The notes under the pieces are model-generated. The model was not told where the DNA came from. It saw only the letters and a program-made list of their open reading frames with translations, and did not search any database. Shown here in pieces: positions 2,896-39,378 of a stretch of 45,144 bases of DNA (position 1 is the stretch's first letter; each line of letters begins with the position of its first letter). Both the position numbers and the translations under genes were made by a program. The DNA comes from Deltaproteobacteria bacterium. GTDB taxonomy: Bacteria; Desulfobacterota; Desulfomonilia; UBA1062. The DNA lies in contig JAKLDU010000007.1 in NCBI GenBank assembly GCA_022703355.1, positions 1-45,144 on the forward strand, read 5' to 3'.

Positions 2896-2925
2896 GTCCC
2901 CTCCCTTCCGGGGGAGGGGAATTTT
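2896..2925 (+). terminator. Rho-independent terminator after the GntR gene
   Basis: CCCCTCCC (2898-2905) pairs with GGGAGGGG (2912-2919) around a short TTCCGG loop and is followed by AATTTT. It starts 7 bases after the stop codon. Confidence 0.8.
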
Positions 2926-2926
2926 G

Positions 2927-3097
2927 CATTCACTCGTCCCGGTTGAAGAAAATTGAGTTCATTGGTCCGGTCCGGAGGTCATATCCGGGGAAAGGTGCAT
3001 TCCCTCGCCTCGGTCGATGAACGTTTGAGAGGCAGCGGCGGTTGGGCTCGGGTATCTTTGAGTAATCTTACATTGCCTCGTCCCAGTCGATGAGGGA
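2927..3097. repeat. Three-copy tandem repeat (71 and 73 bp); third copy is the 3' end of the HAD gene
   Basis: Segments starting at 2927, 2998 and 3071 share the core CATTxxCTCGxCxCxGTxGA. Over 27 bases, neighbouring copies match at 20 positions. The copy at 3071 is the true 3' end of the leftward HAD-family gene (stop at 3068-3070); the other two lie beyond its stop. See the findings for the window-wide pattern. Confidence 0.75.
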
Positions 3098-27132: not shown

Positions 27133-27344
27133 CAAACCTCACCCTCGCATCCTGCGCATCTCAAGAAGCAGGCGCGGACATCGAAGGGTCCATTCGAACC
27201 TTCGCATCTTCTCCCTGCCCGCCCTGTTCATCTCAAGAAGCGAGCGCGGACATCGAGGGGTCTATCCGAACCCTCGCATCTTCTCACTGCCCGTCCTGTG
27301 CATCTCAAGAAGCGGGCGCGGACATCGAGGGTTCACCCGGGCCC

Positions 27345-28883
<1,539 letters not shown>

Positions 28884-29031: not shown

Positions 29032-30531
29032 ATGGCAGGCACTTATACACCCATCATTGCAGGGGTTTCCCAGTTCACGCAGCGCAAGGGCGCGGAAAAG
29101 CCCCTCGACCCCCTGGGCATCATGGAGAAGGTCTGCCGTGGGGCGCTCCTGGACGCGGGGAGCGAACGGATAAAGGATGCGGTGGACTCCCTGCAGGTGG
29201 TCAACCTCTTCCAGTGGCCCTACCGGGACGCCCCGGGCATGCTCGCCCGGAGGCTGGGCCTCGGTCCGGGCGAGCGGCGCTACACGCCCATCGGAGGCAA
29301 CACGCCCCAGCTCCTCGTGAACAGGGCCTGCCGGGCCCTGGCGGCGGGGAAAGCGCGGGCGGTGCTTCTCACCGGGGCGGAGGCGATCTACTCCCTCAGG
29401 AGGGCGCTCAAGGGCGAGATCGCCCTCGACTGGCCTTCGAGCGAGTCCCCGGCCCGCATCGACGGCGAGGAGCGCCCGGGTGCGAGCGAACTCGAGGGCG
29501 CCTACGACCTGTTCTTCCCCGCCACCATGTACCCCCTGGTCGAGACCGCCATCCGGGCCGCTTCCGGAAGGACCCCGGAGAATCACCGGCTCTACATGGC
29601 AGGGCTCTGGGAGCGTTTCTCGATGGTCGCCCCCCGCAACCCCCATGCCTGGACACGGAAGGCCCTGAGTGCCCGGGATATCGGGACGGTCACCCCGGAA
29701 AACCGCTACATCTCCTACCCCTACACCAGGCACATGGTCGCGAACATCAACGTGGACCAGGGCGCGGCCGTGCTGCTGACCACCACCGCGGAAGCCGACC
29801 GGCTCGGCATCGACCGTCACAGGAGGGTGTTCCCCCTGGGAGGCGCGGACTTCCACGACGTCTGGCACGTGACGCAGCGGCCCGCCCTCGACCGGTCGCC
29901 GGCCATCGGGCACGCGTCCCGGATCGCGCTGGAGCAGGCTGGCCTGGAGATGGGCGACATCGACCTCTTCGACCTCTACAGCTGCTTTCCTTCGGCCGTG
30001 GAGATCGCCATGAGGGAGATGGGCATCGGTGACGCGGACCCCCGGCCCATCAGCCTCACCGGGGGGCTCGCCTTTTTCGGGGGGCCGGGGAACAACTACT
30101 CCCTGCACGCCATCGCCCAGGCAGCAGAAGAAATCAGGCGTGACAGGGCACAGAAGGCGCTCATCAACGCCAACGGCTGGTACGTCACCAAGCACTCCGT
30201 GGGGGTCTACGGCGGGGAGCCCTCCGGCCACCCCTGGGGGGAGCGGGACGACTCCGCTGTCCAGCGCTCCATCGACGCGGAAACCCTGCCCTGCCCGACG
30301 GTGCGGGCGCAGGGCGCACTCCGGGTGGCGGCCTACGTGATCAGGCACGACCGGGGCGGGGAGCCGGTGCTGGGCACGGTTCTGGGAAGGCTCCCGGACG
30401 GCACGCGGGCGCTGGCCCACATCCGGGCGGACCGGGAAGAGCTTTTGGAGATGGAGCGCACGGAGCTCGTGGGCAGGGAAGGCCGGGTCGGGCATTCCGA
30501 AGACAGCGGCCACAACGTTGTCCGGTTCTGA
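29032..30531 (+). CDS. Thiolase-like protein (acetyl-CoA acetyltransferase family, SCP-x-like)
   Basis: A 499-aa thiolase-fold protein. It shows IAGVSQFTQRKG at the start, NVDQGAAVLLTT in the middle, and IDLFDLYSCFPSAVEIA and LTGGLAFFGGPGNNYSLHAIAQ, then ANGWYVTKHSVGVYGG. No cysteine lies where the nucleophile of classical thiolases sits (the loop reads TPIGGNTPQLLV), so it may not perform ordinary thiolysis. A C-terminal extension (about 400-490) looks like the OB-type domain common in this branch. It is divergent from the sigma-54 activator. GGGAGC precedes the ATG. Confidence 0.8.
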   Translation: MAGTYTPIIAGVSQFTQRKGAEKPLDPLGIMEKVCRGALLDAGSERIKDAVDSLQVVNLFQWPYRDAPGMLARRLGLGPGERRYTPIGGNTPQLLVNRACRALAAGKARAVLLTGAEAIYSLRRALKGEIALDWPSSESPARIDGEERPGASELEGAYDLFFPATMYPLVETAIRAASGRTPENHRLYMAGLWERFSMVAPRNPHAWTRKALSARDIGTVTPENRYISYPYTRHMVANINVDQGAAVLLTTTAEADRLGIDRHRRVFPLGGADFHDVWHVTQRPALDRSPAIGHASRIALEQAGLEMGDIDLFDLYSCFPSAVEIAMREMGIGDADPRPISLTGGLAFFGGPGNNYSLHAIAQAAEEIRRDRAQKALINANGWYVTKHSVGVYGGEPSGHPWGERDDSAVQRSIDAETLPCPTVRAQGALRVAAYVIRHDRGGEPVLGTVLGRLPDGTRALAHIRADREELLEMERTELVGREGRVGHSEDSGHNVVRF

Positions 30532-30550
30532 GAGGACAGGCCTGCGGGAC

Positions 30551-30750
30551 GAAGGAAGGGTGATGAAACCCCGGCAAACAGTCCTGGCAGCGACTGACAC
30601 CTGGCGCCTTCGCGTACTTGAACGGGAAGACGATGAACCCCTGGCAAACAACCCTGGCAGCGACTGACCCCTGGCCGCCTCCGCATTCTTGAACGGGAAG
30701 ACGATGAACCCCTGGAAAACAGCTCTGGCAGCGACTGTCGCGCTCCTGCT
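30551..30750. repeat. Tandem repeat, 70/71 bp; last copy is the 5' end of the TssJ-like gene
   Basis: The core around ATGAAnCCC...CTGGCAGCGACTG has its ATG at 30563, 30633 and 30704. The second and third copies match at 43 of 47 bases. The ATG at 30704 is the real gene start; the others are duplicated start regions that open only short frames (20 and about 34 codons). Confidence 0.85.
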
Positions 30751-31243
30751 CCTTTTCTCGTGCATGGGCGGGCTTCCCCGGCTGTCCACGGGGCAAGGGG
30801 CAGTGAACCTGGTCTTCGAGGCGGACGCGATGCTCAACGCCCGCGGCGGCGAGCCGCACCCCGTGTCCGTGTGCGTGTACCAGCTCCGGGAGCCGGACGC
30901 CTTTACGGCCCTGGCCCGGACGGAGGACGGGATCTACAAGCTCCTCGAGTGCTCCCCCTTCGATCCCGGAGTCGCCGACGTGAAGCGCTGCGTCGTGCAG
31001 CCGGGCACGGTCCGCAGGGTCTCCCTGGGCAAGGCAGAAGGCGCCCGGTTCGTGGGCCTTGTGGCCGGCTACTACGCGGTGGACAGGAGCAGGAACGTCC
31101 GCATCTTCAGCCTGCCCGGCCGGACAGGAGGGATCCTGTCCGGGGGCCCCCGGGCCGTGCCCCTCGACGTCACCCTCAGGCTCGGGCCCCGGGGCATTGT
31201 CCCTTTCCCCGCGAAGCCTGAGGAGCCAGGCACGTCGCCATGA
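30704..31243 (+). CDS. TssJ-like (type VI secretion) lipoprotein, orphan
   Basis: A 179-aa lipoprotein: a basic start, a hydrophobic stretch and the lipobox LLFSC place the lipidated Cys near residue 20. The mature part, with VSVCVYQLREPDAF, a mid-region ending in CVVQPGTVRRVSLGKAEGARFVGLVAGYY (in part), matches the TssJ/VasD family, which anchors the type VI membrane complex at the outer membrane. No other type VI gene is in the window, so it may be a stray or repurposed member. Its 5' end, including the start codon, is duplicated twice upstream. Confidence 0.78.
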   Translation: MNPWKTALAATVALLLLFSCMGGLPRLSTGQGAVNLVFEADAMLNARGGEPHPVSVCVYQLREPDAFTALARTEDGIYKLLECSPFDPGVADVKRCVVQPGTVRRVSLGKAEGARFVGLVAGYYAVDRSRNVRIFSLPGRTGGILSGGPRAVPLDVTLRLGPRGIVPFPAKPEEPGTSP

Positions 31244-31400
31244 AGAAGGGAGACCTCACCCGCTCCCCCGGTTATGCCCGGGAGAGCGGAGCGCCGAGTT
31301 CGTGCCCCTGCCGGAGTGCCGGGGAGAATCCCTGGTCACGCGGGAGGCAGGCCACGGGACACACGCCTGGCCGCGTCCCGAGCCTTTTCCCGCGTGAGGG

Positions 31401-31522
31401 CGGTGTCCCGTAAGGCCCCGGAAGAGAGATGTCGACAACCTCATCAACCGGCTCCGGTACGCGGTGCCCCGTAAGGCCCTGAAAGAGAATTCCCTTCACA
31501 TTGCCCGGCCGTGGTACTATAG
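31401..31522. repeat. Two-copy direct repeat, period 61 bp
   Basis: CGGTGTCCCGTAAGGCCCCG at 31401 recurs at 31462 as CGGTGCCCCGTAAGGCCCTG, and similarity continues weakly to GGTAC. The second copy contains the promoter of the kinase gene. Confidence 0.65.
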
Positions 31523-31523
31523 T
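31495..31523 (+). promoter_or_regulatory. Promoter of the PAS histidine kinase
   Basis: TTCACA (31495-31500), a 17-base spacer and TATAGT (31518-31523), each five of six to consensus. It implies a leader of about 170 bases with a hairpin. Confidence 0.65.
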
Positions 31524-31700
31524 ATCGTTGCTCGATAATCCGCCCGAACCGGAGGCATCTTTTGCCGTCCATGCCTGCCTCTGCAGGGAGAAGACCTCCT
31601 GCAGGCCGATGGGGGACGGACCGGGACAGGTGCCGGGCGCATGGATCACGTTTTTGCTCCTTGGTGGAACCTCCGCGTGGACCGCGGGAGGAGACGCATC

Positions 31701-33455
31701 ATGGAAGACGAACGGGAAAAGGTTCGAAAGCTCGAAGACGAGCTCGAAGAAACCCGCCTTCGCGTAAGGGAGCTCGAAGAGGCCCTTGCCCGTCGGCAGC
31801 GGACGGTGGACGCGCTGAGGGAGGATGACGAGAAGTACCGGTTCCACTTCCTGCTGGCCAACGACGTCATGTTCTCCTATGACGACCAGTTCAAGGTCCT
31901 GAGCGTCTCGCCCAACGTGGAGAGGATCCTCGGGTACAAGCCCGAGGAGTTCATCGGCAAGACCTTCTACGAGGCCGGCGTGCTGGACCCCGAATTCATG
32001 AACCAGGCCGTGGCCAACGCGCTGCGGGTCCTTTCCGGGGAGACGGTGTTCGGCTCCGTCTACCGTTTTCTCCCCCGGGACGGCTCGGTGCGCTATGGTG
32101 AGATCAGCGGCGTGCCGATCATCCACGACGGCAAGGTGGTCAAGGTCGTCACCGTGGCCCGGGACATCACGGCGCGCATCTCCATGGAGGACACCCTGAG
32201 GGCGAGCGAAGAGCGGTACCGCACAACACTCGAGGGCCTGCCCGACGCCGTGAGCATCCTCGCCGTCGAAAACTGCCGGTACCTCTACGTGAACGAGGCG
32301 TTTTCCCGGATCACGGGCTGGCCTGCCGCCGAGGCGGTGGGGAAGTCGCCCGTGGAGCTCGACCTGGCTGAAAATGAACGGGATCTGGAGGAGTTCCTGG
32401 CCCTCGTCCGCGAGGCCGTGCCCGTGGACGGCCTCGAGTGCCGGTGCCGGAGCAGGCGGGGCGATGTCCTCGACACCTTCGTCTCGGCCAGGCCCGTGGA
32501 GTACGACGGCCAGGGGTGCATGGTCGTGGTCATGACCGACGTCACCGCGGTGAGGAGGATCGAGGAGGAAAAGAAGCTCATGGAGATCCAGTCCCAGAAA
32601 TTCGAGTCTCTGGGGACGCTAGCCCGGGGCATAGCCCATGACTTCAACAACATCCTGACCACCATCATCGGCTACACCAGGATGTCCATCAAGGACATCC
32701 TGGCCAGGACCGCAGGCGAGGACGAATTCGCCTCGGTGCGCGGCGACCTCGAAGAGGTGAGGAGGTCCGCGCTGCGCGCCCGGGACCTCGTGGAACAGAT
32801 CCTCCTCTTCAGCAGGCACACGGAGAAGCCCCTCGTGCCCCTCGACCTGGGCGAGGCGGTGCGGGACTCCCTCAAGATCCTGCGGCCCATCCTGCCGGGC
32901 ACGGTCGAGCTCGTCCAGACGACGGACGTGCCCGGCCTGATCATGGGAGACCCCCGGCAGATCCACCAGGTGGTCACGAACCTCTGCACCAACGCAGTCC
33001 ACGCCATGAGGGACACCAGGGGGAGGCTCGAGGTGGGCCTCGCGCGGGTGAACGTGGACGACACGTTCAGGCCGGATGCCGGTCTTCCCCGGGGCCCCTG
33101 CCTGAAGCTGACGGTGAGCGACACGGGCACGGGCATGACGGAGGGGACCCTCTCCCGGATCTTCGACCCCTATTTCAGCACCAGGGGCAAGGAGCACGGG
33201 ACCGGCCTCGGGCTGTCGGTGGTCAACGGGATCGTCAGAAGTCACGGGGGCTGCATCTTCTGCACGAGCGAGCCAGGGCAGGGGACCACCTTTGAAATCT
33301 TCTTCCCCGAAGCGGCCCCGCGGGCAGACGATGAGGCCGCCCGGACGCATGTGGAGCGAATGCCCCGGCCGAGAAAGCCAGCCCCCGATGGGGTTGGCGG
33401 GGTGGCCGGACCCGTACGGGACGGGGTCCCGGCGTCCCCTGAAAAGGAGCACTGA
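31701..33455 (+). CDS. PAS-domain hybrid-type sensor histidine kinase (no receiver)
   Basis: A 584-aa soluble sensor kinase. A short coiled coil (1-40, KVRKLEDELEETRLRVREL) leads into two PAS domains (about 45-165 and 170-290). The HisKA H-box is GTLARGIAHDFNNIL (phosphorylated His), and the HATPase domain has NLCTNAVHAM (N box), DTGTGM (G1) and GTGLGLSVV (G2). It ends in a Pro/Arg-rich tail. No membrane helix, so it senses a cytoplasmic signal. The ATG at 31701 has GGGAGGAGA upstream. No response regulator is adjacent; its partner is unknown. Confidence 0.9.
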   Translation: MEDEREKVRKLEDELEETRLRVRELEEALARRQRTVDALREDDEKYRFHFLLANDVMFSYDDQFKVLSVSPNVERILGYKPEEFIGKTFYEAGVLDPEFMNQAVANALRVLSGETVFGSVYRFLPRDGSVRYGEISGVPIIHDGKVVKVVTVARDITARISMEDTLRASEERYRTTLEGLPDAVSILAVENCRYLYVNEAFSRITGWPAAEAVGKSPVELDLAENERDLEEFLALVREAVPVDGLECRCRSRRGDVLDTFVSARPVEYDGQGCMVVVMTDVTAVRRIEEEKKLMEIQSQKFESLGTLARGIAHDFNNILTTIIGYTRMSIKDILARTAGEDEFASVRGDLEEVRRSALRARDLVEQILLFSRHTEKPLVPLDLGEAVRDSLKILRPILPGTVELVQTTDVPGLIMGDPRQIHQVVTNLCTNAVHAMRDTRGRLEVGLARVNVDDTFRPDAGLPRGPCLKLTVSDTGTGMTEGTLSRIFDPYFSTRGKEHGTGLGLSVVNGIVRSHGGCIFCTSEPGQGTTFEIFFPEAAPRADDEAARTHVERMPRPRKPAPDGVGGVAGPVRDGVPASPEKEH

Positions 33456-36197: not shown

Positions 36198-36710
36198 ATG
36201 AGCAGGGTCTTCACCGCCCGCGGCGTGCTGTTCGGTTTTCTGCTGGTCGCATTCATTATCGTGTTCGAGATCATCCTCGCGCGTCTGGGCCTTCCGGCCT
36301 GGCCTGCCTTCATGGCCATGATATTCTTCTTCGTGGCGCACGAGGACGTCTCCGCAGTACCCCCCATCCTCATCGGAGGTCTCGCGGGGATCGCCTGCGC
36401 CTTCCTCGTCGAGGAGTTCATTGCCGCCCTGGGGCCGGTCCTGGGGGATGAGGCGGCGAAGCTCACCTTCATCGGACTCTTCGTGTACTCCATCGTGCTC
36501 CTCAAGGACACCATCCCCTCCGTCTTCAACAGCTATGCCTTCATGTTCTTCCTGGTAGGGGCGCTGGCCCGGAAGGCCTCGCCGCAGAGCCCCTTCGTCT
36601 GGATGGGCGTGGAGCTCTTCTTCGGCGGGATCTTCATCGCGGGCGTGGTGGGCATCTCCCGGATCGTGGACAAGGTGCTCGGACCGGCCCAGGGAACAGT
36701 TTCCCATTGA
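36198..36710 (+). CDS. Small multi-pass membrane protein, unknown function
   Basis: Not recognised. 170 aa with five likely membrane helices (about 9-28, 32-48, 55-85, 90-112, 115-155). A HED near residue 50 (FVAHEDVSAVPPILIGGLAG) follows the second helix and might be functional. It resembles small DUF1097-type permease-like proteins in size and topology only. GAGGGGG precedes the ATG; it lies 24 bases after rmuC and may be co-transcribed. Its 3' end, with the codons for LGPAQGTVSH, is duplicated 71 bp downstream. Confidence 0.7.
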   Translation: MSRVFTARGVLFGFLLVAFIIVFEIILARLGLPAWPAFMAMIFFFVAHEDVSAVPPILIGGLAGIACAFLVEEFIAALGPVLGDEAAKLTFIGLFVYSIVLLKDTIPSVFNSYAFMFFLVGALARKASPQSPFVWMGVELFFGGIFIAGVVGISRIVDKVLGPAQGTVSH

Positions 36711-36782
36711 GAGGCGTGCGGATCAAGCACGACCAGCCCAAGAAGGCGCTCGGGCCGGCCCAGGGCACGGTTTCCCATTGAG
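36672..36782. repeat. Two-copy direct repeat, period 71 bp; first copy is the gene's 3' end
   Basis: GGTGCTCGGACCGGCCCAGG at 36674, running on to TTTCCCATTGAG, recurs at 36745 with 34 of 38 bases matching. The first copy contains the stop codon of the membrane protein; the second lies wholly in the spacer and keeps the same TGA. No gene is visible between 36711 and 36985. Confidence 0.8.
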
Positions 36783-36985
36783 GGGGACCCTGTTGCCACG
36801 ATTCGTCGGATGAGGCACGCAGCAGAGATGCCCTCGGCAATCCGACCATCGAATGGACCCCAGTGTCCTGTTTCGGGCGGTTCCCGGTTGCTTTTGCCCC
36901 TGGTTCTCCTGTATGGGACATGGGTAAGCCGAGCGGCAAAATGCTTCCGCCGGGTTGTGCCGGGCAGATCAGCGAGGAGGTTGTC

Positions 36986-38256: not shown

Positions 38257-38365
38257 GGCACGGGCGAAGGGGATTTCGCTTGAGCAGGACACGCCGTGAC
38301 GAGATCGCCCTGCCGCACCGCCTCCCAGGCACGGGCGAAGGGGCATTTGCTTGAGCGGGACACGG
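38257..38365. repeat. Two-copy direct repeat, period 71 bp, after the ElyC-like gene
   Basis: GGCACGGGCGAAGGGG at 38257, continuing to GGACACG, recurs at 38328 with 33 of 37 bases matching. Weak similarity to the gene's own last codons (GAGATCG...CTGC at 38179) appears at 38301. Confidence 0.75.
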
Positions 38366-39266: not shown

Positions 39267-39378
39267 GCGCAGCCTGCGGGAGCGCGGCTAGGAAAGCCGC
39301 AGGCCTCTGCCGCATTCGTCACCGGTGAGCGAGGCGCAGCCTGCTGGTGTGCGGCGGGGAAAGCCGGTGGCAGATGCC
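39267..39378. repeat. Two-copy direct repeat, period 67 bp
   Basis: GCGCAGCCTGCGGGAGCGCG at 39267, through GGAAAGCCG, recurs at 39334 (35 of 45 bases match). It begins 8 bases after the ADC-like stop codon. A shorter GGCGAAGGGGG at 39399 recurs at 39445, where it forms the next gene's ribosome binding site. Confidence 0.65.

Follow-up and report, generated by a model that had tools for sequence, protein, structure and literature searches.

Three start regions of a tssJ gene belong to a genome-wide set of short, fixed-length units at gene ends and in gene gaps

The 5' end of a tssJ gene in the 45,144-nucleotide stretch of DNA analysed here (the window) raises the question of why one coding sequence should be preceded by two further copies of its own beginning. 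The three start copies described in an earlier note on this DNA, with ATGs at 30563, 30633 and 30704 and spacings of 70 and 71 bp, were confirmed by sequence comparison, and no such pair was seen in shuffled sequence. The core common to the three copies, of ~35 bp (30562-30596, GATGAA...GCGACTG), begins 1 base 5' of the ATG. The match between copies 1 and 2 spans 30562-30605, while copies 2 and 3 are identical at 56 of 62 bases (30605-30666 versus 30676-30737). The locus displays the layout repeat(35)-insert(35)-repeat(35)-insert(36)-repeat(35), in which inserts 1 and 2 are homologous (Table 1). A signal peptide with a lipobox, followed by TssJ, is readable from ATG 30704 only (Pfam T6SS-SciN, E=1.9e-19). 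As the note had proposed, the upstream copies open short frames, of 34 and 19 residues for copies 1 and 2, respectively, and both end before tssJ. Its description of copies 2 and 3 as near-identical also stands, but the purine-rich stretch that it counted as part of the duplicated start is insert sequence, and the Shine-Dalgarno site of copy 1 is different and stronger. Similarly, the start is indeed present three times, as expected if duplicated twice, but not through simple tandem duplication; rather, tssJ carries two units of fixed length, each composed of an unrelated insert and a copy of the target.

Table 1. Features of the tssJ start region and sister sites in the window.
Feature	Position	Strand	Remarks
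Three copies at the 3' terminus of an NT5C-like gene (- strand)	2916..3094		two different inserts
71/72-bp class array at the 3' end of a sigma-54 regulator (- strand)	27151..27376		at least 3 copies; regulator stop at 27345
Thiolase-like gene upstream of tssJ	29032..30531	+	ends 31 bp 5' of copy 1; probably co-transcribed
Native Shine-Dalgarno site of tssJ (AGGAAGG), now 5' of copy 1	30553..30559	+	anti-SD duplex -8.9 kcal/mol; outside repeated segment
Repeat copy 1, 35 bp	30562..30596	+	begins 1 bp before ATG 30563; sequence self-comparison
Short frame 1, 34 aa, MKPRQTVLAATDTWRLRVLEREDDEPLANNPGSD	30563..30667	+	opened by copy 1
Insert 1, 35 bp	30597..30631	+	no genome match elsewhere except insert 2
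Repeat copy 2, ATG 30633	30632..30666	+	sequence self-comparison
Short frame 2, 19 aa, MNPWQTTLAATDPWPPPHS	30633..30692	+	stop 11 nt 5' of ATG 30704
Insert 2, 36 bp, homologous to insert 1	30667..30702	+	source of the weak Shine-Dalgarno now 5' of tssJ
Repeat copy 3, genuine tssJ 5' end	30703..30737	+	
tssJ, type VI secretion lipoprotein, 179 aa	30704..31243	+	Pfam PF12790, E=1.9e-19
61-bp class site downstream of tssJ	31400..31488		28-bp repeat, 33-bp insert, 28-bp repeat
71-bp class site spanning the stop codon of a DUF1097 gene	36672..36785		
71-bp class site	38257..38364		13 bp past a DUF218 gene
67-bp site	39267..39378		9 bp past an acetoacetate-decarboxylase gene

Co-transcription of the upstream copies with tssJ is probable, because 31 bp lie between the end of the co-directional thiolase-like gene and copy 1, and a promoter search of this interval gave no sigma-70-like element. 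The computed Shine-Dalgarno duplex amounts to -8.9 kcal/mol before decoy ATG 1 versus -4.3 kcal/mol before the real ATG; the strong site was kept by copy 1, while the weaker one that now precedes tssJ derives from the insert. Judged from the sequence, it is plausible that the decoy ATGs alter tssJ translation: the native Shine-Dalgarno site would recruit ribosomes onto the 34-residue frame, and tssJ would rely on the weaker site or on re-initiation following frame 2. The gene adjoins thiolase-like and histidine kinase genes (29032-33455), and no other type VI secretion genes were seen among the window proteins scanned. A TssJ protein search of the genome contigs revealed no related loci, a phage search with tssJ DNA gave no match, and for the window gene tried for orthologues only distant ones exist.

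Comparison of the window with itself at every lag revealed pairs at 61, 67, 70, 71 and 72 bp in unrelated places (2916, 27151, 31400, 36672, 38257 and 39267), and shuffled sequence gave none. The view that tssJ is a 5' version of a pattern of 3' ends was thus upheld, as the spacing recurs at six more window sites and at ~60 outside the window in the sampled genome. In the metagenome-assembled genome (MAG, 80% complete; 1.33 Mb sampled for pair lags), 58 of 65 out-of-frame direct repeat pairs lie at a lag of 61-62 or 67-74 bp; five coding-sequence loci with in-frame pairs were set aside as protein repeats. No pairs at these lags were found outside arrays in 10 relatives (0.66 Mb unmasked; seven of the same genus and three of the same family), and no out-of-frame pairs at 59-75 bp in other species (80 loci, 1.26 Mb). 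The first 984 kb contains 63 placed loci, of which 37 are intergenic, 18 lie over a stop codon, three over a start codon and five in coding sequence, compared with random expectations of 12%, 4.4%, 7% and 76%, respectively; these counts are approximate, because gene calls came from a simple codon-usage script. The tssJ triplication exemplifies a process that has acted across the genome at dozens of scattered sites, and literature searches returned no report of such sites in any native genome. The site at 2916-3094, alone in having two distinct inserts, is the nearest here to a miniature CRISPR array, made from host sequence.

A typical site comprises 23-43 bp repeated with sharp edges and flanking an unrelated insert of 26-44 bp. 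Two classes were distinguished, one with a mean repeat of 28.8 bp (about 28), an insert of 32-33 bp and a lag of 61.0 bp (sd 0.5), the other with a mean repeat of 36.0 bp, an insert of 35 bp and a lag of 70.8 bp (sd 2.0). Within a class, the unit varies less in length than the repeat does, and in the 71-bp class repeat and insert lengths are correlated at -0.93 while repeat length is independent of the lag. At young sites, whose repeats are identical at 34 of 35 or 35 of 35 positions, the insert resembles either flank at background level only. The youngest-looking site, L121:18077-18172 (35/35 identical, lag 61, insert of 26 bp), departs most clearly from a constant 28-bp repeat. A few sites, including tssJ, have gained a further unit that shares the insert of the first, an outcome expected of unequal recombination between repeats. 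Repeat-edge bases show a weak preference for G in the 71-bp class only, and a de novo motif search in the targets gave nothing significant. Sites do not match one another and share no conserved element sequence. The inserts likewise matched nothing in their own genome (50 compared with the sampled 44%, 22 with the whole MAG), and 19 young inserts gave no match to phages.

Two sites distinguish insertion from a change in place. At L073:8767-8872 (G000:C198) the upstream gene ends in one copy of the repeat and the downstream gene begins in the other, and removal of the 74-bp unit leaves the two genes with the usual -4 GTGA overlap. At L267:7533 the repeat contains the ends of two convergent genes, one per copy, and with the unit taken out the converging stops are 3 bp apart. 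Insertion with duplication of the target site is therefore demonstrated at L073:8767 and L267:7533; it is strongly suggested at the remaining sites, for all of which we infer a common origin. At L073:8767 the unit also constitutes a short frame, overlapping the genes on either side with its start and stop, and translational coupling may therefore be kept.

These two junctions bear directly on in-place templated overwriting, in which a patch would have been copied 61 or 71 bp away without insertion, the apparent insert being original sequence. Such a process accounts for the constant distance, the free patch length and inserts that match nothing anywhere, but at both sites the copies serve different genes and removal of the unit restores a normal junction, and at tssJ the stronger Shine-Dalgarno site was left at copy 1. 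On the evidence of L073:8767 and L267:7533, overwriting was rejected as a reading of the pairs, and we regard it as unlikely overall. Whole-unit tandem duplication was rejected for the pairs because of their sharp repeat edges. Ordinary tandem duplication through slippage during replication, with the redundant parts decaying afterwards, could be read into the arrays in which the repeat extends over the whole unit (window 27151, window 30562, L121:10930 and L141:13840), yet near-identical repeats (34/35, 35/35) have sharp edges and inserts with only background similarity to the flanks. Slippage would also give no fixed period of 61 or 71 bp and would occur in relatives, where 0.66 Mb contained no such pair outside arrays, and it appears highly improbable. 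Equally remote is a regulatory design in which the tandem starts were retained to control TssJ translation. The decoy ATGs, the difference in Shine-Dalgarno strength and short frames ending just 5' of tssJ would suit this reading, but units of the same length recur at ~60 unrelated places, most of them in gene gaps or across stop codons.

Off-target insertion by a Cas1-Cas2-type CRISPR adaptation integrase is, in our tentative judgement, the best explanation, because the mean unit geometry matches that of CRISPR units in the genus. Fragments inserted by Cas1-Cas2 integrases measure ~30-40 bp, and their insertion duplicates the repeat, the length of which is fixed by the integrase in CRISPR arrays. 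Integration by Cas1-Cas2 at non-array sites has been described in vitro (PMC6895254, PMC8047081) and, when the proteins are overexpressed, in vivo (PMC11788318). True arrays in the genus are of type I-E (29-bp repeat, period 61) or have a 35-bp repeat and a period of 70-76, so the unit lengths of the two classes equal those found in the lineage (61; 70-76). We infer both the identity of the enzyme and a foreign source for the inserts. In this view, 61-bp or ~71-bp units, consisting of short unrelated DNA and a copy of a 23-43-bp target, would be added at scattered sites, and selection would retain those in gaps and over gene ends. Two systems would have operated, one with I-E geometry (28+33) and one of ~36+35. 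At tssJ the target would start 1 base before the ATG, with the first unit later doubled, probably via recombination between the repeats. Although cas1 was found in most of the genus, the assembled 80% of this genome contained no cas1, I-E cas1, cas2, cas5 or cse1, no CRISPR repeat of the genus and no array. The 61-bp class targets resemble I-E repeats (z of 4.7 versus dinucleotide shuffles), with scrambled palindromic controls reaching 4.6, and the 71-bp class targets do not (z of 0.5). The latter also display no resemblance to the 35-bp repeat of the genus.

Insertion that duplicates a target of repeat length, as an adaptation integrase would perform, was observed directly at two sites. In contrast, the repeat length is not constant as in CRISPR arrays; it ranges from 23 to 43 bp and is anticorrelated with insert length in the 71-bp class. 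Insertion is thus regarded as established at the two sites and as strongly suggested elsewhere, and Cas1-Cas2 only as the likeliest of several agents, because no cas genes or genus repeat and no source of the inserts were found in the sequence searched and the unit is tighter than the repeat. For the same reasons of repeat length and enzyme, the sites were not filed as off-target spacer integration. The geometry works like that process, with considerable room for an undescribed integrase. An unfamiliar integrase or repair process that adds units of constant overall length (61 or 71 bp) across the genome, each joining a captured fragment to a target copy of variable length, and so remodels gene ends, is a possible, if doubtful, alternative. 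Such a process agrees with a unit length that is tighter than, and independent of, repeat length, with a difference of about one DNA helical turn between the classes, and with the lack of cas1 in the assembled 80% of the MAG. Against it, the average lengths of repeat and insert agree with those of two CRISPR types in the genus, and to our knowledge no enzyme inserts units of fixed total length with a variable target copy.

The nearest described counterpart of the proposed Cas1-Cas2 insertions is 'neo-CRISPR', the non-canonical spacer integration of Nivala, Shipman and Church (2018), as presented where it is cited in PMC11788318 and PMC9456107. In these accounts, as here, short DNA enters non-array sites and a target of repeat length is duplicated, giving a repeat-spacer-repeat of CRISPR unit length; those insertions accompanied overexpression of Cas1-Cas2 (PMC11788318), whereas the present genome holds dozens of native, partly decayed sites with variable repeat length and no cas genes seen in the 80%-complete MAG. 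The type I-E and 35-bp-repeat arrays of the genus (G004, G006, G001) share the periods of 61 and 70-76 bp, but they present one repeat many times beside cas genes, while each site here has its own repeat, usually in two copies. The sites thus lack the single repeat in at least three copies, the distinct spacers and the adjacent cas genes that define a CRISPR array, window 2916 being the exception in its two distinct inserts. Mycobacterial interspersed repetitive units (MIRUs) lie in gene gaps and share a conserved sequence; in some of them, start and stop overlaps at the two ends provide a small frame that couples the neighbours. The position in gene gaps and the frame overlapping both neighbours at L073:8767 recall MIRUs, but the units described here have length alone in common and no conserved element. 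Variable-number and slippage tandem repeats also present direct repeats in intergenic DNA, but here two fixed spacings and an unrelated insert between near-identical copies replace a wholly repeated unit of variable period.

If CRISPR adaptation is the cause, the sites provide native, genome-wide evidence of off-target insertions that alter gene ends and starts, and the cost of such insertions could help to explain CRISPR loss. If it is not, an insertion machine with a length ruler exists that has yet to be described. With either agent, natural off-target rates, target rules and consequences become measurable from sequence. A start codon was also found within a second such site, L030:11632-11721 (G000:C1), where the ATG and the first signal peptide codons are repeated 60 bp upstream and in frame; on sequence grounds, this duplicated start could add a 20-residue N-terminal extension.
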